This document shows positions 3,301 to 50,350 of a DNA stretch of 64,000 bases, piece by piece. This DNA comes from an uncultured Prevotella sp. (lineage in GTDB: Bacteria > Bacteroidota > Bacteroidia > Bacteroidales > Bacteroidaceae). Position 1 is the first letter of the stretch; the number at the start of each line of letters is the position of its first letter. A model generated the notes under the pieces. It made no database searches, was not told the DNA's origin, and saw only the letters and a program-made list of their open reading frames with translations. The stretch is from contig CAJOPT010000097.1 of assembly GCA_905236455.1 (NCBI GenBank), positions 1 through 64,000 on the forward strand, written 5' to 3'. The position numbers and the translations under genes were made by a program.

Positions 3301-4743
3301 TTATGCGAGTCGTTCAAGAAGTGACAGAGTTACTTTCCAGATGTCATGAATGGTCTTTATCTCCACACGCTCAAGGGTAGAGTGTGGCTCTACGATACGC
3401 GGACCGATACTTGCGATTTCTATGCCCGGATATTTCATTACAAAGTAGCCAGCCTCAAGGACAAAGTGCATTGCGACCTTACGGGGACGCCATCCGAGAA
3501 CATCTTGGAACGTGTCGGAGGTAAGGTTGATAAAGTCGGAGTCTTGGTTCTCCTGCCATGCAGGAGCCGACATAATCAGTTCTGTCTTTGCACCAGCGGC
3601 TTCAAACACTTTTCTTATGTCTTTTGCCAGATTGTCCATATCTTTATCTATGAAACTACGGGTGTGGGTTGATATGCAGATATTGTCTTCCTCAATGGTG
3701 ATACGTCCGACATTATTTGAGGTCTCTACTGTGTCAGCCATACTGTCACTCATCTTTACCACACCTTGCGGGATTTGTTCCAAGGCACGCATCAATGCGT
3801 CAAAAGCCTTGTTGTCAATGACTTTCTCCGGTTTCTCAACTTTCTCTATGTGACAATGTATATCGGGATCGTTCTCACCGTATTCCTGCATAATCCACTC
3901 GTTGAGACTTTCTTCCTGAGATTTTACGAACTCAGACGCTTCTCCAGAAGGAATGCCAATGACAAAGTCTGCTGACGCGGCGATGCTGGCATTGGCTTCG
4001 CCTACGCGCAGGGAAGCAACATCAAAGTCGTACTCATTGTATATCGCTGCTAAGACAGCCCATGTGAGGATTGTCGCGCTGGCTCGTCCTTTGTTGATGT
4101 CAACACCGGAATGTCCACCTTTGCCTCCAGAGATGGTTATACGATACCAGCGTCGCTTTCCTCCTGGTGCCGATATCCATTTTACAGGTATACGGTGATA
4201 TTGCAGGCATGCTCCTGCCGCGCCAGTGGTGATAGTGTCATAATCTTCTGAGTCGAGGTTGATAACTTTCCTTCCACGTATAAAGTTTTCTGAGAGGTTA
4301 GCAGCTCCCGACATACCATCTTCCTCGTTAGTGGTTGTCATTACTTCCAATGGACCATGTACTATAGTGTCGTCGGCGAGAATAGCCAAAGCCATGGACA
4401 GACCAATACCGTTATCTGCTCCCAATGATGTGCCACGGGCTTTCAACCATCCATTCTCCTCATACGCCTCGATAGGAGTTTTCAAAGGGTCCTTCATTCC
4501 AACACATACCATGTCCATATGGTTAAGCAACACTATAGGTTCAGCCTTCTCATGACCAGGCGTCGCAGGTTTTCGTATTACTACGCAGTTATGTGAGTCA
4601 CGCTCATATTCAAGGTTTAGCTCTCTGGCATAGTCACATAGGAAATCAGCTACCCGTTCCTCATGATGTGACGGGCGTGGTATATTGTTCAATTGCTTGA
4701 ATATTTGGAATACTTTATCTGCTGTTGTCTTCATGGTTTTCAT
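3301..4743 (-). CDS. pepD: Aminoacyl-histidine dipeptidase (M20 family)
   Basis: MKTTADKVFQIFKQLNNIPRPSHHEERV, LLNHMDMVC, TNNEEDGMSGA; start moved from track 4926 to internal ATG. Confidence 0.9.
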   Translation of the reverse strand: MKTMKTTADKVFQIFKQLNNIPRPSHHEERVADFLCDYARELNLEYERDSHNCVVIRKPATPGHEKAEPIVLLNHMDMVCVGMKDPLKTPIEAYEENGWLKARGTSLGADNGIGLSMALAILADDTIVHGPLEVMTTTNEEDGMSGAANLSENFIRGRKVINLDSEDYDTITTGAAGACLQYHRIPVKWISAPGGKRRWYRITISGGKGGHSGVDINKGRASATILTWAVLAAIYNEYDFDVASLRVGEANASIAASADFVIGIPSGEASEFVKSQEESLNEWIMQEYGENDPDIHCHIEKVEKPEKVIDNKAFDALMRALEQIPQGVVKMSDSMADTVETSNNVGRITIEEDNICISTHTRSFIDKDMDNLAKDIRKVFEAAGAKTELIMSAPAWQENQDSDFINLTSDTFQDVLGWRPRKVAMHFVLEAGYFVMKYPGIEIASIGPRIVEPHSTLERVEIKTIHDIWKVTLSLLERLA

Positions 4744-35929: not shown

Positions 35930-38041
35930 TTATGCGTATGAGTGCATTCCTCCTAAGAAATAGTTGACGCCAAAGTAGGTCATCAGTACGGCAAGGAATG
36001 CCAATACGAGATAAAGGTGGAACCAACGAACTTTCTGTAATAGCGGAATACTCTTGTTGTGTAGTGGGACCGCATATAACATAAATGTGATTAGTGCCCA
36101 GACTTCCTTTGGGTCCCAGCTCCAATAACGTCCCCAGCTGATATTTGCCCAGGTCGCTCCTAAGAAAATACCTGTGCCAAGGAAGAAAATAGCCGGGTAC
36201 AACATCAGACGTGACAAAACCGTCAGCTGCTCTATTGTCTCTGATTCTTTGGAGAATAAAGCATATAATCCGTTAAGCGTTATCAAAGCCAGAAGTGCGT
36301 ATGCCATCATAATCAAGCTCACATGTGAGCTGAGCAAAGGCGAGTTTAATACAGGCATCAGAGGTGTTATCTTCGGGCTCATTTGTCCAAGATGCGCAAC
36401 AAGAAGAATAAATCCACTCAGCAAGAAACCAAATGATACCATGAATGGAAACCTCCGTGACAGAAAGATAGTTATTGCCATAATTGCAAGAGCCAGAAAT
36501 TGCATTGTCTCAAAACCATTTGCCAATGGGATACGTCCGGCAATGTACCAACGCATTATGTATGAAACAAGTAATATGATGAATGCCAGTATCATGAGAC
36601 TTATACTGACAAAGATACCTTTCTTATACCATTCTGATTTTATAATAAATAAAAAGAAAAGTAAAAAGCCTAAGGTGAGATTATACATGAATAAGACCTT
36701 ATTGAAAGGTATAGTGTTATATAAAATCTCAACATTTATTTGACTGTCGCTTAATAATTGTACTCCCTTTGGAACTGGCGTTGTCAGTTCTCCGTTGACA
36801 GCTAATATTATAAGACCTACTTTCTCGTCAAGTTCACGCGCACCTTTAGACACATCGCCTTTTTGCAGCATCTGAAGCAGGCGATAATTACCTTTCGCGT
36901 CAAACAACTCATCCATACTTGCATATTTCCCATCTATACCCAGCGACCTTCTAAGATTATCGTCTTTGATCTTGATCATCTTCTCAGTTTTCCAGGCATC
37001 AGGGCGTTTCATCCAACCGATGATAACTTGCTCTGCTGAAAGTCCTTTATAGTTACTCTTACCGTAGATCTTTTGGATAAAGTCGTGAGCTACAGTGCTA
37101 AATGGCGCGACCCTGTCATTGTACATTACTTGTTGGCGGGCAATGGCATTTGCTTTCTCACTATTGATCGTAGGGATTGTACGATTTGCAAAACCTTCAT
37201 TGCAACATGTAATCAACAATAGGAGAACTATGGTTTTCCTTAGTGAGGGATGGTTAATCAGTCTACGGAATTCCCCCTTTCGTGACAATAGTATCAATAT
37301 CATACTAATTGCGAACAGAAGGTATCCGATGTATGTTGTTAAAATACCAATAGGGTCATGGTTTATACTCAATATTGTACCGTTCTTGTCAGGGTCAAAC
37401 GATGATTGATAAAAGCGGTAACCATTCGTGTTGAGTATCTTATTCATTGATATGGTTGCATTGAAGTCTGTCGTTATAGACGACAGACTTTTAGACAATG
37501 TTTTATCAGACTCCCGCCTTGGACGGGAGTCTTTATCCGTTGAGATGTAGTGGCATTGAACCTCGCTTATAAAATCTGTAGGGGCATTGGTGCCAGGATT
37601 ATACTCTACCCTGAATTCTCTGAGAGTCAGTTGTAGTGGCATATCGGTAGGCTCCTTTGTCTTTTTCTCTATATATGTGTTGGTTGGCACTCCTTTGCGC
37701 AGATGTATCTCTCCTTCCTTACCAGTAAAATGAGTTATACCTGCACCAACCATAATCAATAAGAGAGAGGCATGCAAGAGATGAACAGATATTCTGGAAT
37801 GAGACTTACCCTTTGGCAGGGAACTCTTCGTTTCTCCTGCTTTATTCCGAAACATCACCTTTATATAATATATCGTAGCCAATAGTACTAAAGCCGCCCA
37901 TAAGAGAGAGAACCATAGCGTCCCGTAAATCTCTTTGTGAGCGTATGCCGTACCATTGGCTTGTTCGATGAATGTCGCAACCCCTAAGAGTACTATTATT
38001 CCTCCATAGAGTATGGCAATAAGTATCTTGATCAGTTGCAT
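35930..38041 (-). CDS. Cytochrome c biogenesis ResB/CcsA fusion protein
   Basis: 703 aa; ResB-like N-terminus; C-terminal WANISWGRYWSWDPKEVWALITFMLYA. Confidence 0.88.
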   Translation of the reverse strand: MQLIKILIAILYGGIIVLLGVATFIEQANGTAYAHKEIYGTLWFSLLWAALVLLATIYYIKVMFRNKAGETKSSLPKGKSHSRISVHLLHASLLLIMVGAGITHFTGKEGEIHLRKGVPTNTYIEKKTKEPTDMPLQLTLREFRVEYNPGTNAPTDFISEVQCHYISTDKDSRPRRESDKTLSKSLSSITTDFNATISMNKILNTNGYRFYQSSFDPDKNGTILSINHDPIGILTTYIGYLLFAISMILILLSRKGEFRRLINHPSLRKTIVLLLLITCCNEGFANRTIPTINSEKANAIARQQVMYNDRVAPFSTVAHDFIQKIYGKSNYKGLSAEQVIIGWMKRPDAWKTEKMIKIKDDNLRRSLGIDGKYASMDELFDAKGNYRLLQMLQKGDVSKGARELDEKVGLIILAVNGELTTPVPKGVQLLSDSQINVEILYNTIPFNKVLFMYNLTLGFLLFFLFIIKSEWYKKGIFVSISLMILAFIILLVSYIMRWYIAGRIPLANGFETMQFLALAIMAITIFLSRRFPFMVSFGFLLSGFILLVAHLGQMSPKITPLMPVLNSPLLSSHVSLIMMAYALLALITLNGLYALFSKESETIEQLTVLSRLMLYPAIFFLGTGIFLGATWANISWGRYWSWDPKEVWALITFMLYAVPLHNKSIPLLQKVRWFHLYLVLAFLAVLMTYFGVNYFLGGMHSYA

Positions 38042-39978: not shown

Positions 39979-41313
39979 TTAGAACGCATATTGCATCATA
40001 ATCATTGCAGTATGAGTACAGAGTCCCAGTTCGTCAAGATCGCGGTCGATCTGTGTGTCATGTCCCCATCTGCCAGTATATTGGTATGCACCGGAAATCT
40101 TGATGTTGGTGTTTGGAACAAAATAGTTTACTACTACGGCTGGCGAATTTATTGAACCGTCTTTGGTGCTGCCATTACGATCCATCCAGTCATATCGGAG
40201 ACCTAACTGCCATTGCGGTGCTACGAAGTAACCGATTTGTCCGTATGCTCCCCAGAAATTATAGCTGTCGCTTATCTTTTGGCGATCAGTAAACCCTATG
40301 TGCATATAATACCCTTCGGCAGTAAAAGACCATTTTCCTTTTAACCATGAGAACTCAACCCCTGCACGGAAGTCATTGGTGCTCTCGCTCTCAGCTTCAT
40401 TGTTGTAGTTGGCACTTACGCCAATGAGCATCTTGTCAAGGTCCTGCATCTTTGCATTTCCTTGTGTCATCGGCATAGGACCATTTGGCATAAAGGTAAA
40501 ACGTCCTGCATAGAGTAATGAAGGAAGATGATTGTCGTCGCTTAGTCCTTTTGTTGCACTGTTTACAGCTGCCCCGGTGCCATTAAAGATACCTACCTCG
40601 TATCCGAACTTCTTATTTATAACACCATGCATCTCCACGCCAAGGTCGAAGCCTGTTCCGACACTTGGTGTTACAGCATTAAGTGAGTAGGGTAGTATTA
40701 CTGATGACGTTAATGATGTAGGCAGGAATGGGAAAAGCGTCTCACCGAGAGTTGTCAAGTACGCACTTGTAAATGGCGTCTTGAACTTTCCGGCACGGAA
40801 ACGTAACTCAGGACTTACAGCATAGTCAATCCATGCTTGTTGGAGTATCGCCCCACCTGATGCGGCTGCATTTATACAGATGTTATAGTCTATCTTTCCA
40901 AAAGCTTTACCAGTGAAACCTATTATCGCGTATGGAACGGCAAAACCAGAGTTGGCAATATTGTCTTGGTTATATGCTTTGTCCAAGCCAACGTCATCAT
41001 AATAACGGTAGCTAAGGTTGCTTTGGAGCATGAGGTATGGCTTGAAAACGAAATTGCCGTCCTGTGACTGTAGTGTGAAACCGCGGTCATCGGCAATTGG
41101 TAATACGCCATTTTCCATGTCGTATTTCTTTTCATCTTGGTTGATAGCTTTCTCATCTTCTGGCAGAAGTGTCTCTTTCATGTCATTAGAGAATTGTAAA
41201 TCTGTGGGTTCAAGTATTTGCTTTGTAACCTCTTCTCTGTTGTCCGCCCATGAGAATGAAACGGAGCAAACTGCCAATAACACGGCGGCAGTACGTAAAT
41301 TTATTATCTTCAT
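39979..41313 (-). CDS. Phosphate-selective-porin-like outer-membrane protein
   Basis: 444 aa, signal peptide, beta-rich, FRAGKFKTPFTSAYLTTLGETLFP, terminal aromatic residue. Confidence 0.72.
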   Translation of the reverse strand: MKIINLRTAAVLLAVCSVSFSWADNREEVTKQILEPTDLQFSNDMKETLLPEDEKAINQDEKKYDMENGVLPIADDRGFTLQSQDGNFVFKPYLMLQSNLSYRYYDDVGLDKAYNQDNIANSGFAVPYAIIGFTGKAFGKIDYNICINAAASGGAILQQAWIDYAVSPELRFRAGKFKTPFTSAYLTTLGETLFPFLPTSLTSSVILPYSLNAVTPSVGTGFDLGVEMHGVINKKFGYEVGIFNGTGAAVNSATKGLSDDNHLPSLLYAGRFTFMPNGPMPMTQGNAKMQDLDKMLIGVSANYNNEAESESTNDFRAGVEFSWLKGKWSFTAEGYYMHIGFTDRQKISDSYNFWGAYGQIGYFVAPQWQLGLRYDWMDRNGSTKDGSINSPAVVVNYFVPNTNIKISGAYQYTGRWGHDTQIDRDLDELGLCTHTAMIMMQYAF

Positions 41314-41356: not shown

Positions 41357-42823
41357 TTATAAGCTTTCCAGGAACTTGACAAGCTGATTGCGCTGTTGTT
41401 TATTGAAACTTGCAAATTTCTGTCGGGAGGCGTAAGCTTCTCCTCCGTGCCACATTATAGCTTCAATGAAATTACGGGCACGTCCGTCATGAAGGAAATA
41501 AGTGTGTCCGTTTACCTTTTCCTGTAGTCCTATACCCCATAGTGGAGTAGTACGCCATTCATTTCCCATGCACAGACCACTTACATAGTTGTCGTTGAGT
41601 CCAACACCCATAATCTCAGAACCCATATCGTGGATCAGGAAGTCTGAATAGGGATGAACCGTCTGGCTACCAAGCCATGGCAAGGCTGTTCCTGCTAACA
41701 AGACAGAGCCTCTTGGACGAGTGTGAAGGGTTGTGACATGGCAAAGGTGACATCCGGCTTTATAAAAGAGCTGTTCGCCTGCTTGCACATCAGGGTTGTT
41801 AACGTTGCGGCGAGCTGGTACAGCCAGACATTGCATATAAAGGTCAACGTTTTCCATATCCTCGGTTGTGCAGTCAAGCTGTTCGTATGACAGTCCCATC
41901 ATACTACCTTGGTTGACCTGTGCTTGTCCTTCGCAGATCTCCTCTGGATAGCGGCTGTTAGTGAGACCCATGTCACTTGAAAAGCCAAGCTCGACAGTAA
42001 GGTCGGCGTGCTGTGCTTTATTTCCTGAGAGTCCCAGCTGGCGTTTTCCTCGTTCTACGATATAGTTGCATCTGCCGCTGATGCCCCATTCCGGATAATT
42101 GCTCTTACGGGCGAGTGCTTCAATTTCGTAAGGGTCGAGTGACATCATCTGACCCATTCCGACATGGCGTAAAGGAATACGCACGGTTAAAAACATGTCT
42201 TCTGGACGAATGCTGTCGGCATACCATTCGGTTATAGTCCATTTTGGTACGCATAATGTGTATTTCTCCCCGTCAGGGAAGGTATATGTGGTTGAGTCTA
42301 TTTCTACTTTAAGTTTGCCTTCTGGCTTTACACCGTATATTGCTTGGTCATGAACGACACGACCATAGTCTTGATAGAATTTTCCATTTTTCTTTGAGAC
42401 ATAAATCAGCATGGATGTAAAACCATAAGAGCCGGAGGCATCTTTGCTTCCGTTCTTTATTGCGGTCCAGTAGGAAGGTTCTGTCCTTCCGGCATTTCGG
42501 TGGCAGCTGCCACAGGAATATCCTGCATAGACCGGACCTAATCCGCCACCTACACCGTTCTCATTACTCGTCTTGACATTGTCATAGAGACGGTCACCGG
42601 TATTGAAACGGGTGTCATATACGCCTGAAACCCAACTGGCTGGCTGGTCGTAGGAATAAGGCGAACTCATAAAGACTGTCGCCGTGCCAGCTGAGAGAGC
42701 ATATCCGTTGGGAATATCTATGTCATCAACGTCCAGCTGGTCGCTGTCGTCGCATGCCATTAGTGAACATACCCCCAGAAGTATGCATGAAATCTTGGAA
42801 AAACGATTCATAAATGTTTTCAT
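41357..42823 (-). CDS. Di-heme oxidoreductase (DHOR)-like lipoprotein
   Basis: Lipobox LMAC; two heme motifs CGSCH and CHLCH; GLGPVYAGYSCGSCHRNAGR. Confidence 0.85.
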   Translation of the reverse strand: MKTFMNRFSKISCILLGVCSLMACDDSDQLDVDDIDIPNGYALSAGTATVFMSSPYSYDQPASWVSGVYDTRFNTGDRLYDNVKTSNENGVGGGLGPVYAGYSCGSCHRNAGRTEPSYWTAIKNGSKDASGSYGFTSMLIYVSKKNGKFYQDYGRVVHDQAIYGVKPEGKLKVEIDSTTYTFPDGEKYTLCVPKWTITEWYADSIRPEDMFLTVRIPLRHVGMGQMMSLDPYEIEALARKSNYPEWGISGRCNYIVERGKRQLGLSGNKAQHADLTVELGFSSDMGLTNSRYPEEICEGQAQVNQGSMMGLSYEQLDCTTEDMENVDLYMQCLAVPARRNVNNPDVQAGEQLFYKAGCHLCHVTTLHTRPRGSVLLAGTALPWLGSQTVHPYSDFLIHDMGSEIMGVGLNDNYVSGLCMGNEWRTTPLWGIGLQEKVNGHTYFLHDGRARNFIEAIMWHGGEAYASRQKFASFNKQQRNQLVKFLESL

Positions 42824-42936: not shown

Positions 42937-44097
42937 TTACTTTACAGTACGGGCTTTTCCATTCTTGAAAATCAGGTATTCCAGTGTATGGAAGCCGCGA
43001 AGACTTTGTGCGTCTTCAATCTTCTTGTTGTCCTCATCGTACTCACCAGACCAGTTCAGGTCAGAGAAATCCTGTGACTTCAGGATGTTCACGATACCGC
43101 TTTGGTCGAGTGGCCAGCTGTCCATGTTTGGATCGAGACCTTTGTCTGCAACAGGACCGAAGAGGAATGCCTCACTCAGCTCCCATGGCTCGCGGGCAGC
43201 CAGCCAAGCATTGGCACAAGCCTCAAATGTAGCATTGCTCGGATTAGCTTTGAACGCTTTTACAGCATTGTCGAGAGCTGTGTTTTTGTTAGCCAAGTCT
43301 TTGTAGGTTGGCAGGATGACAGCGTTGACATACTGAGTGACAACAGGGTAGAGAGTCTCATCGTCATTCAGGTTTTCTGTGAAATATGTCTTTAGCTTGT
43401 TGCTGATGAAATCCTCCAGGTCTGCGCATGCCTCCATAGCTTCCTTTGAAGCCTGTGAGTTGATGTTGTTACGGAAAGGCTGTGGAATAGCCTGGATTGC
43501 ATTTGCTGCTGCCTGAATCAGACTCTTGGCTTCTGAGTCCAGATCCGCGTTCTTCTTGGCAAGCACTGCAGAGAGAGAGTTGGTATTGATGGAACCATCG
43601 CGACTGCCATAGTAAGCGTTACGGATAGAATAGATGTTGTTTGTATAGTCATCACGTGAATGCCAGCTGTACCATGACTCTACTGCATAGAGTGCCTCAG
43701 TCGTCTTACCTGCCACATACAGGTTGTATGGATCGCCGATCTTGGATGCTCCAACCTCAGAAGCGATATCTGCACAGCCGTCAAAGATTGTTTCAACACA
43801 AGAGATAGCTGACGGATAGTCATTGCCTTTCTCAAGGAATATCTTGGCATAACTCTTTGAATATACACCGTTGTTGTCATCATTCCAGTATTTGTACAGG
43901 TTCTCAGCGTCTGTCTTCAACAAACCAGATACTACTTGCATGTAGTTTGCCCACTGCTCTCCATATTGGGAATTGTAATCCAGGTCGTTGGCATTGTTGA
44001 TGTCAATGACAATGTTGTTGTCGTCATTGTCATCACCGCATGATGTGAATGTGAGTCCCAAGAGAAGGGCTCCAATAAAAAATAGATACTTTTTCAT
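42937..44097 (-). CDS. Imelysin-like (M75) lipoprotein, circularly permuted order
   Basis: Lipobox FTSC; ANAWLAAREPWELSEAFLFGPV and terminal GFHTLE (GxHxxE). Confidence 0.82.
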   Translation of the reverse strand: MKKYLFFIGALLLGLTFTSCGDDNDDNNIVIDINNANDLDYNSQYGEQWANYMQVVSGLLKTDAENLYKYWNDDNNGVYSKSYAKIFLEKGNDYPSAISCVETIFDGCADIASEVGASKIGDPYNLYVAGKTTEALYAVESWYSWHSRDDYTNNIYSIRNAYYGSRDGSINTNSLSAVLAKKNADLDSEAKSLIQAAANAIQAIPQPFRNNINSQASKEAMEACADLEDFISNKLKTYFTENLNDDETLYPVVTQYVNAVILPTYKDLANKNTALDNAVKAFKANPSNATFEACANAWLAAREPWELSEAFLFGPVADKGLDPNMDSWPLDQSGIVNILKSQDFSDLNWSGEYDEDNKKIEDAQSLRGFHTLEYLIFKNGKARTVK

Positions 44098-44160
44098 TTT
44101 ACTAATTAATTAATGTGAATTGAATTGGTTATTTTATTATTTCTTGCAAAGCAATTATTC

Positions 44161-45486
44161 CTATTTTTTGTTAAACCATAATGTGTAGGCGAGACCCAGG
44201 CGGAACTCGTTCTCGCTGGTATAGTCGCTGGTTCCAAATATCTTGGAGGTTCCTATCTGGCGGGTTGTGTAGTCAGCCTTGACAACTAATCCAGGTAAAG
44301 GCTTCCAGTTAAGTCCGAAACTCCAGAGGCTTACCTGACAACGCTTGTCGGCAATCATACCGCTTTCCACTTCCTCTTGAGGATTATAATAATTATAATG
44401 TACGAAAGGATATATCGTTGGGAATTTGTTGACATTAGGGAAGAATGCCTTCAGATTGACACCTGCCTCAAAGCTATAGTCCATAACTCGTTTTGCAATA
44501 GGTCCGATACGGCTGTATGGTGACTTGCTTGAATAAGTACGGTTCTTTCCCCCTAAACCGACCGTCTCAGTCATGCTTCCGCTAAAGAAGTTGGCGCGTG
44601 CCGTGACATATCGGTTGATATATTGTGCGTCGAATGAATACATCAGTATGTTGATGTCACCAAGATCATCGTATGTCACCAGCTTATCTGCATTCTTTCC
44701 TGCATTGGGATTATAGAACAGGGATGCTCCGACACGAAGTCCTTGGATACCAGTCCAATTTAAGCGGACAGTATAGGCAGGCGAGCTGAAGTTATCAGTT
44801 TCTAAAAAACCTTGTTTGCCACCTTTTACCCAGTTATATAAGTTGACGCCATTTGGGTTGAGTCCTGCCGTAATCATAGCCTCATAGTCAAAAGACGCAT
44901 ATCCACTGCCGAGTGCTCCGAAAACCTCAATACCAGTCTCGTGCCACGTGCAAGGAATAAGTACTGTTGCTCCTTCTGGTCGTGCGGCTGTGAAGAAATT
45001 TATTGGCTCGTGGTGAGTGTTCGTTAGACCTACAGGAATAATCAAGTGTCCGGCGCGGACGTTGAACTCTGGGATGATGAGGTGAGTGATATGAAACTGC
45101 TCAAGAGCGACCTCTCCACCTTTCTCAACTTCCTGTTCGTATTCTCCGTTCTCAGAACTTTGTCCGACTTCTATCTCATATGCCTGTCCTGTGCCTCCAG
45201 CCTCAAACTCAATCTCGGCACCTAATATCCACTTGTCAGAGATTTTGTAGTCACCAGAAAGTACGAAACGTGGTATGGATATCTCGTTGTGGCTGCGTTT
45301 CGCATTACCGTTACCACCATAATAACGGTTTAAACCATAGTCTTTAAAGGTGGCGAGCATCTCTCCATAGCCGCCGACCCTGAATCGGTTGAAAGTGCTG
45401 TCTTGAACTGCTGGTGGCTCAGACGCATTTGCTATGTTGGCTGATGCGAATCCCAGGATGATGCTTAATATAAGTTTTCTTTTCAT
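44161..45486 (-). CDS. Outer-membrane porin-like beta-barrel protein
   Basis: 441 aa, signal peptide, VRAGHLIIPVGLTNTHHEPINFFTAARPE, ends with NEFRLGLAYTLWFNKK. Confidence 0.7.
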   Translation of the reverse strand: MKRKLILSIILGFASANIANASEPPAVQDSTFNRFRVGGYGEMLATFKDYGLNRYYGGNGNAKRSHNEISIPRFVLSGDYKISDKWILGAEIEFEAGGTGQAYEIEVGQSSENGEYEQEVEKGGEVALEQFHITHLIIPEFNVRAGHLIIPVGLTNTHHEPINFFTAARPEGATVLIPCTWHETGIEVFGALGSGYASFDYEAMITAGLNPNGVNLYNWVKGGKQGFLETDNFSSPAYTVRLNWTGIQGLRVGASLFYNPNAGKNADKLVTYDDLGDINILMYSFDAQYINRYVTARANFFSGSMTETVGLGGKNRTYSSKSPYSRIGPIAKRVMDYSFEAGVNLKAFFPNVNKFPTIYPFVHYNYYNPQEEVESGMIADKRCQVSLWSFGLNWKPLPGLVVKADYTTRQIGTSKIFGTSDYTSENEFRLGLAYTLWFNKK

Positions 45487-45597
45487 TCTTTTATATGTAT
45501 TTTTTTTCTGGCTGCAAAGGTATTGTGAATCTTAAATATATGCAATACCTAAAAATTATGGATTTTTTATAAAATAAAGCCAAATAAATTAATTTAT

Positions 45598-45630
45598 TTT
45601 GTGTGGTTTAAATATAATTAGGTATCTTTG
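45598..45630 (+). promoter_or_regulatory. Putative promoter for the hemerythrin-LuxR regulator
   Basis: TTTG-N21-TATCTTTG on the plus strand; the -7 box is in the left arm of the inverted repeat. Confidence 0.6.
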
Positions 45631-45767
45631 CAAAAGAAAAGTGCAGATTCTTGATTGATGTCTCACCAACGACAGCTTGTCAATATATGTGAATTGAATT
45701 GGTTTCCCTTAAACTGTCTGCTGTGCGAGAATTTCAATCATCCCTGCACTTTTCGTTTGCAAAGATA
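45623..45767. repeat. 24-bp inverted repeat (one mismatch) flanking 97 bp
   Basis: TATCTTTGCAAAAGAAAAGTGCAG (45623-45646) and reverse complement of TATCTTTGCAAACGAAAAGTGCAG (45744-45767). Confidence 0.92.
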
Positions 45768-45896
45768 GACTGAAATATTCAATGTCGCAATACTCATAAA
45801 TTGGTAATAAGGGAAAAATACCTACTTATTATTATTGCACAGTTGGTGATTTTTTATTTATTTTGCATGCGTAACTGATGTTTAATAGGTGATAAG

Positions 45897-46853
45897 ATGA
45901 AAAATCAGAAAATGTATGAGGCGGATGACAAGATGATTTCTATTATCCGTGATAATTACGATATTCTTCAAGGGTTGGGGTGCTTCGGCATTAACTTGGG
46001 GTTTGGCGACAAGACCGTACGTGAGGTATGTGAGGATCAAAACGTTGATACATATACATTCTTGGCTGTTGTCAATTTCACCATTAATGGGTATAAAGAC
46101 CTTGATGATGCTGATAAGTTGTCTATTCCCACTTTGCTTCATTATTTGGAGGCAAGTCATGAGTATTTCCTGAATTTCAAATTGCCTCATATACGCAAAG
46201 AGCTGGAGGAGGCATTGGACGAGAAAGACAATTTGGCGCGTCTTATCATGAAGCTTTATGACGAATATGCGCACTCTATACAAAATCATATGAAATATGA
46301 GGAAAAGACAGTCTTTCCGTATGTTATTGCTTTGCAAGAAGGAAAGGCTGACGGTACGTATGATATAGATACATTTTCCAAGCATCATGGGCAGACCGAC
46401 GTGAAACTTCGGGAGCTGAAGAACATTATTTTGAAGTACCTTCCATCTGATCTCCTGCATAACAACAAATTGACAGCCGCTTTGTATAATATATATAATT
46501 GTGAGACATGGCTCGGTCAGCACGCAGAGGTTGAAGATCATATTTTCATCCCGGCTATCAGGAGGATGGAGCGGAAAATGAAACAAAGTGATGTCTCGGC
46601 AAAGATCTCTAATATGATCTACCAGAATCCTAATTCAAATGAAACACTTAGTGACCGCGAGAAAGATGTTGTAATATCTGTTGTTCAAGGAATGACGAAC
46701 AAGGAAATTGCTGACCATCTTTGTATTTCAATCAATACTGTTATCACACATCGTCGCAATATCGCACGTAAGTTGCAGATACATAGCCCCGCAGGGCTTA
46801 CTATTTATGCAATAGTTAACAATTTGGTTGACATTACATCTGTTAAATTATAA
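45897..46853 (+). CDS. Hemerythrin-domain transcriptional regulator with LuxR-type HTH
   Basis: ScdA/RIC-like N-terminus; hemerythrin-like H/E pattern (HEYF, HMKYEE, HHGQTDVKL, HAEVEDHIF); LSDREKDVVISVVQGMTNKEIADHLCISINTVITHRRNIARKL. Confidence 0.85.
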   Translation: MKNQKMYEADDKMISIIRDNYDILQGLGCFGINLGFGDKTVREVCEDQNVDTYTFLAVVNFTINGYKDLDDADKLSIPTLLHYLEASHEYFLNFKLPHIRKELEEALDEKDNLARLIMKLYDEYAHSIQNHMKYEEKTVFPYVIALQEGKADGTYDIDTFSKHHGQTDVKLRELKNIILKYLPSDLLHNNKLTAALYNIYNCETWLGQHAEVEDHIFIPAIRRMERKMKQSDVSAKISNMIYQNPNSNETLSDREKDVVISVVQGMTNKEIADHLCISINTVITHRRNIARKLQIHSPAGLTIYAIVNNLVDITSVKL

Positions 46854-49645: not shown

Positions 49646-50350
49646 TCATCTTCGCATGCTATATTCGCATCCGCAATACTGTTGATTATAGAAATTATAT
49701 TCCTTAAGCAGTTGGTTGCGTCGGTCGGAGAGTCCACCCTTACGCCAGTTTTGTGCCCAGAAGATGGTACCTGGCACATCAGCCTGCGCAGTCAATCCCG
49801 CATGCGTAATCTGGTCAATACTCTTCCATCGTGATGATGCCAATGTCGTCGTGAAATAGGTTAGTCCCAGTTCACGTGCTTTTTTTGCTGTGGCTGTCAA
49901 ACGTAGGCGGAAGCACAGCTCGCAACGTCTTCCCCTTTCCGGCTCCTGTTCCATGCCACAAGACTGGTGCCCTTGGCGACAGTCTGTTGGACCTTGTTTT
50001 ATCAGTCCCCCGCCGCTGACGAGGGACTGGTGCCCTTGGCGACAGTCTGTTGGACCTTGTTTATATGTCTCTTGCCACAGGCGGGAGATCTGTCGCAGCC
50101 AATCCTGATGATTGTAATCACCGTCAATCCATTGGATTCCCAAACTGTCAGCATGTCTCTTACTTTCCTCTTTTCTGATGGTATATTCCTCTATCGGATA
50201 TATATTCGGATTGAAATAGAATATAGTAGGACGGATATCGTTTGCTAACATCCATTCTACTATGGCAGATGAACATGGAGCGCAACAGGCATGGAGAAGA
50301 ACCTCGCTGATTCCTTCCGGAGGTTGTATGGGACACCTTTTCTTTTTCAT
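49646..50350 (-). CDS. queH: Epoxyqueuosine reductase QueH with internal duplicated insertion
   Basis: LLHACCAPCSSAIVEWML and EPERGRRCELCFRLRL; NQQYCGCEYS. Confidence 0.88.
   Translation of the reverse strand: MKKKRCPIQPPEGISEVLLHACCAPCSSAIVEWMLANDIRPTIFYFNPNIYPIEEYTIRKEESKRHADSLGIQWIDGDYNHQDWLRQISRLWQETYKQGPTDCRQGHQSLVSGGGLIKQGPTDCRQGHQSCGMEQEPERGRRCELCFRLRLTATAKKARELGLTYFTTTLASSRWKSIDQITHAGLTAQADVPGTIFWAQNWRKGGLSDRRNQLLKEYNFYNQQYCGCEYSMRR
49962..50062. repeat. 38-bp exact direct repeat, two copies 63 bp apart, within queH
   Basis: GACTGGTGCCCTTGGCGACAGTCTGTTGGACCTTGTTT at 49962-49999 and 50025-50062. Confidence 0.95.

Follow-up and report, generated by a model that had tools for sequence, protein, structure and literature searches.

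The feature under study sits in a 410-bp gap between two divergent genes of the window (the whole 64,000-nt stretch of DNA that was analysed): the minus-strand gene encodes an outer membrane protein of 441 aa, and the plus-strand gene a regulator of the hemerythrin-LuxR type. The genes of the locus, together with the promoter assigned to the first of them, are:

35930 to 38041, minus strand: ResB/CcsA protein of cytochrome c assembly, encoded by the final gene of the locus
39979 to 41313, minus strand: Porin_O_P porin (PF07396)
41357 to 42823, minus strand: DHOR di-haem (thiol) oxidoreductase (PF06537)
42937 to 44097, minus strand: imelysin, peptidase M75 (PF09375)
44161 to 45486, minus strand: OmpF/OmpC-like porin (placed from its modelled fold), 441 aa, first gene of the operon
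45515 to 45545, minus strand: separate porin promoter, GGTATTG-N20-TACCTTTG, between the gene and the hairpin described below
45897 to 46853, plus strand: divergent regulator, a RIC-like hemerythrin fused to a LuxR-type HTH (CdhR-type fusion)

The 441-aa protein has no match in Pfam or NCBIfam; an AlphaFold model of moderate quality (pLDDT 57) leads, through Foldseek, to OmpF/OmpC porins (E 3e-12), and it is on this predicted fold that we place it among them. Most relatives carry the porin, imelysin, DHOR and ResB/CcsA genes in that order, the window having further genes inserted, and gene content suggests orthology with BT2473-BT2482 of B. thetaiotaomicron, for which PMC10434189 gives a 69-324-fold induction by low iron. 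The same paper describes the hemerythrin/CdhR pair as iron-regulated, and as fused in P. intermedia (PMC10434189). Our search of 399 genomes of the genus detected the fused regulator in 390, some of these matches covering the HTH part only. Elsewhere in the window (49646 to 50350, minus strand) a protein with an in-frame internal duplication, carrying KQGPTDCRQGHQS twice, resembles a repeat inserted into a conserved gene.

Within the gap, the first-pass annotation had picked out a 24-bp inverted repeat (45623 to 45646 and 45744 to 45767), each arm of which begins with TATCTTTG, and had read it as two promoters facing each other, whose overlapping antisense leaders could fold into a long hairpin. 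The repeat and both boxes are present in the sequence: the arms, each of 24 nt, are complementary at 23 of 24 positions and lie 97 nt apart, and, at up to three mismatches, the arm pattern matches these two places only, whether in the window (where shuffles expect 0) or across the 2.57 Mb assembly, so that the repeat occurs once in the genome. Searched against 85,000 species and viral contigs, the same pattern gave matches in unrelated organisms only, which we took as chance. TAnnTTTGCA is enriched in the window (18 seen, 3.8 expected), an excess that the Bacteroidota promoter is expected to give.

The repeat is the basal, outer part of a longer hairpin that covers the whole interval, and most of it is accounted for by a predicted minus-strand RNA running from about 45754 to 45636. 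The features of this RNA and its surroundings are:

45790 to 45807, minus strand: candidate operator, the dyad TTACC-N8-AGTAT, which overlaps the -33 box and is kept in nearly all homologues
45788 to 45790, minus strand: -33 TTG, separated by exactly 20 nt from the -7 box that follows it; an arrangement shared by 28 of 29 homologues
45760 to 45767, minus strand: -7 box TATCTTTG of the predicted hairpin RNA promoter; same architecture in 28 of 29 homologues
45636 to 45754, minus strand: conserved hairpin RNA, predicted from fold, covariation and homologues
45687 to 45704, minus strand: apical stretch AACCAATTCAATTCACAT of the hairpin
45632 to 45640, minus strand: U-rich, terminator-like tail (TTTTCTTTT) after the hairpin
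45623 to 45646, plus strand: plus arm, with TATCTTTG at 45623 to 45630 and TTTG at 45598 to 45601; possible weak convergent promoter

Folded as minus-strand RNA, the interval reaches -49.6 kcal/mol (z -6.95), compared with -35.9 kcal/mol (z -3.4) for the plus strand, and the fold is organised around a core, GTGCAG...CTGCAC (45749 to 45641), as three helices with asymmetric internal loops between them. Aligning the regions upstream of the regulator in relatives recovered a diverged element, GTGCAG-(about 95)-CTGCAC, from three further genomes, and in a four-sequence alignment built without structure, compensatory changes fall at 6 of 19 pairs. With 23 sequences, both sides have changed at 14 of the 19 pairs, a count tilted towards structure because this alignment was fitted to the covariance model; such cells number 46, against 12.8 for shuffled alignments, none of 500 of which scored as high, and the signal is lost in slid controls. 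The internal loops and the base stem are conserved among homologues, and the compensatory changes support one fold. The long hairpin that had been foreseen in the RNA is thus borne out by minus-strand fold and covariation, and we consider it very probable, from these comparisons, that a hairpin RNA about 120 nt long, conserved among relatives, is encoded by the minus strand.

Coding readings of the interval fared poorly: a plus-strand 37-aa small protein was tried and rejected, and a minus-strand leader peptide starting at ATGATTG loses its start codon in several homologues and has its frame broken by indels in close relatives. A kink-turn at the outer internal loop, considered by eye, was incompatible with the bases there. 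No family of Rfam 15 passes its gathering threshold on the element, and the element of the window has chance-level matches only. In two relatives, sub-threshold matches to the Bacteroides sRNA BTnc060 (L112:1184-1334 and L113:1025-1205, both minus strand; 84 and 80 bits, E ~1e-11) adjoin the element without overlapping it, 170-300 nt downstream of the hairpin and on its strand; the porin is absent there in both genomes.

A first covariance model, made from four sequences, found matches in 23 of 349 genomes; one (G229/L125), with neither promoter nor porin, was dropped. The refined model detects the element in 28 of 399 genomes of the genus, always as one copy per genome, and in none of 196 other Bacteroidales genomes, in a survey that took one genome per species, many of them incomplete, and searched them with a coarse first filter; one weaker match next to the regulator (L079) brings the set considered below to 29. 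The element appears to be confined to one large genus of more than 400 species, whose size, promoter type and gene content suggest Prevotella. Its orientation relative to neighbouring genes is identical in every homologue where it can be read. This bears directly on whether the repeat might be a phase switch that inverts, or else a MITE, a small mobile element of palindromic form; its size would suit either. Inversion is unlikely because of that constant orientation, an invertible promoter being one found both ways round, and because no invertase lies among the neighbouring genes examined; a MITE family would recur several times in a genome, its copies having terminal repeats in common, whereas here we find a single copy, with no further copies of element or arms, and on this we rejected the repeat-element reading. 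Taken together we regard a switch or MITE as extremely improbable, in keeping with the doubt about a simple phase switch already voiced in the first-pass annotation.

The minus-arm promoter, also proposed there, gains a good deal from the homologues: TTG-N20-TAnnTTTG is found just upstream of 28 of the 29 elements, on the strand opposite to the regulator (shuffles expect <1), and ends 9-38 nt before the hairpin, with the 5' end of the RNA predicted at about 45754. The dyad overlapping its -33 box is a probable operator, with the binding protein inferred, and is reminiscent of LuxR/NarL-type sites. At the other end, the first 10 nt past the hairpin hold a mean of 6 T, against 2.6 further on. 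Counts of G-U and A-C in the helices (24 vs 18) leave the strand undecided, so that the strand call rests on promoter, tail and gene order; several homologues fold better on the strand opposite to the one proposed.

The plus-strand half of the facing pair is a different matter. If two convergent promoters produced overlapping antisense leaders, with the plus transcript serving as an alternative leader of the hemerythrin-LuxR regulator, one would point to the TTTG that precedes the plus-side box by 21 nt in the window, and to a plus-side -7 box within 40 nt of the hairpin in 8 of the 29 homologues. These eight, however, fall in two clades, only two of them (the window and L114) have a -33 TTG at 20-21 nt, and the box is missing from every homologue with a directly led porin; the regulator, moreover, has a nearby TTG-N20-TTATTTTG promoter of its own here, and relatives have comparable sites upstream of it. 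In both arms the outer 12 nt (45623 to 45635 and 45755 to 45767) are perfectly inverted, yet lie outside the predicted minus-strand RNA. This symmetry beyond the stem favours the convergent pair, and could reflect a weak convergent promoter, possible in the lineage of the window, or a quasi-palindrome perfected by template switching. On balance the plus-strand promoter is, as its distribution indicates, weak and clade-limited, and facing promoters do not stand as the main point of the locus; we judge that reading quite unlikely, and take the conserved feature, from the pattern of sequence change, to be an RNA structure of one strand and not an opposing promoter pair.

How the hairpin RNA relates to the porin differs between genomes. 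In 19 of the 29 the element is followed on its own strand by a porin homologue as the neighbouring gene, including genomes with the regulator elsewhere, which is the arrangement of a 5' leader for one gene family across species, though not in all genomes. In 14 of them the hairpin is the only leader mapped for the porin gene, which lies 40-190 nt further on with no intervening promoter detected; five genomes, the window included, have a second promoter in between; and in 10 no porin follows. About 10 of the 29, with own promoter, a tail whose T-run is 3-7 long and no following gene, thus have, by sequence, the form of a stand-alone sRNA. T-runs are longer in the second-promoter and no-porin groups (mean 4.8 vs 3.1, p 0.0008, uncorrected for descent), and leader and stand-alone forms are scattered over the regulator tree, and on both counts repeated switching between the two is suggested. 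Because the porin of the window has its own promoter, a direct leader role is unsupported there. The hairpin in this genome is likely a stand-alone RNA with a terminator-like tail.

One might instead envisage a cis-acting riboswitch or attenuator, in which the asymmetric internal loops would bind a metal or an iron-related metabolite and the hairpin, with its U-tract, would gate read-through into the porin operon. The 14 directly led porins, the conserved loops and base stem, and the terminator-like tails would all suit such a device; against this, the RNA stands alone without a porin in about 10 genomes, and the U-tract is weakest exactly where control of read-through would be needed. We regard this as rather unlikely.

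The apical stretch offers another clue, through a copy in the operon itself:

44113 to 44130, minus strand: 18 nt of the imelysin leader, 15-32 nt before the ATG, identical to the apical stretch

A flavodoxin leader has 15 nt identical to the apical region (TCAATTCACATATAT), and the 2.57 Mb hold five copies of CAATTCACAT: one in the hairpin, one 25 nt ahead of imelysin, one 27 nt ahead of flavodoxin, and two that are antisense to coding sequence. The promoter architecture of this flavodoxin locus (L141; G000:C100, about 3512-3640) equals that of the porin, and the few other full GTATTG-N20-TAnnTTTG sites in the genome include the porin's own and the flavodoxin's; flavodoxin genes of two relatives have a promoter of the same type. 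In one relative (L049/L150, G016) the hairpin and porin diverge from a flavodoxin gene, which takes the place of the regulator; this neighbour would further link the element to iron starvation.

A trans-acting small RNA, pairing with target mRNAs through the apical stretch, would agree with the element's own promoter, terminator-like end and conserved apical sequence. The copies near start codons are, however, identical in sense and not complementary, and of the eight sites for the complement, ATTGAATTGG, one is the hairpin itself and one is the antisense of the imelysin leader, while among the remaining six a single site is close to the start of a gene; the apical complement gave no convincing targets as an antisense seed. 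Such pairing seems to us improbable, and sense identity speaks for a 'decoy', or for a binding site in common, more than for an antisense seed. The sharing is lineage-limited and for that reason less certain: CCAATTCAA or a close variant is present in 16 of the 29 apical regions and missing from 13, no more than 3-4 of 16 operons show a long match to the imelysin leader, and three other genomes have 9-11 nt common to hairpin and imelysin leader, most lacking such a match. As for membership among decoy or sponge RNAs, defined by a site common to regulated mRNAs, there are the 18-nt and 15-nt identities here, shorter or absent in many others.

Synthesising these observations, we take the inverted repeat to be the base of a conserved hairpin RNA; the locus looks like a case of new RNA-level iron control, not of opposing promoters. 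The RNA would be made from its own Bacteroidota-type promoter, overlapping a probable iron-starvation operator, and would head, or here just precede, the operon for porin, imelysin, DHOR and cytochrome c assembly. We suggest that a short recognition sequence, CCAATTCAATTCACAT in this genome, is displayed on its stem and repeated 15-35 nt before the imelysin and flavodoxin start codons, and that, this sequence being common to the three RNAs, each of them would be bound by a single trans-acting factor, whether an antisense small RNA or an RNA-binding protein. As a direct leader the hairpin would place the porin under the same control; as a stand-alone RNA it may serve as a decoy, drawing the factor off the other mRNAs under iron shortage. 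For the reading as a whole, that is, an iron-starvation leader or small RNA displaying a site common to mRNAs of its regulon, we would put the probability at about 0.5. The shared-site mechanism taken by itself falls somewhat short of even odds, and it is a clearly more tentative proposal that the hairpin alternates between porin leader and stand-alone decoy, with a site shared by the imelysin and flavodoxin leaders, and so ties together a Prevotella iron-starvation regulon through one factor.

Decoy or sponge RNAs, of the CsrB or target-mimic type, display a binding site common to the mRNAs that they regulate; the putative decoy here differs from CsrB-type RNAs in carrying one site on a single hairpin. 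It resembles RyhB-type iron-starvation small RNAs in its inferred iron-starvation regulon promoter, but has a sense sequence in common with mRNAs where those have a complementary seed, and no sequence relation is claimed. No RNA that regulates iron is known to us from this phylum.

Among described systems, SnoA/BTnc284 of Bacteroides thetaiotaomicron (PMC13370916) is likewise a Bacteroidota stress-regulon RNA locus that adjoins a regulator gene in some clades only; that RNA, however, goes with hcp-hcpR and is proposed to work through complementarity to the hcp promoter, with no hemerythrin-LuxR regulator or porin operon. BT2473-BT2482, with CdhR-hemerythrin, has in common with our locus the porin, thiol oxidoreductase, M75 peptidase and CcsA, and the same type of regulator; no leader or small RNA is described for it in the available portion of PMC10434189, and the refined model has no homologue in the out-of-genus genomes sampled. 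HMP2_1032 (PMC8040213) is similarly palindromic, about 106 nt long and from Bacteroidetes, but lies near tonB. The hairpin RNA is uncatalogued relative to Rfam 15, and the supplementary candidates of PMC8040213 might list it.

Mechanisms of iron-dependent regulation in Bacteroidetes are, in PMC10434189, described as scarcely known. A single-copy RNA with covarying helices, linked to the hemerythrin-CdhR regulator, to a porin-imelysin operon and to flavodoxin would provide a concrete and testable entry to this control; the sequence common to the leaders points to a putative RNA-binding factor that could be 'fished out' directly, and the set of related species offers the same RNA as leader or free-standing.
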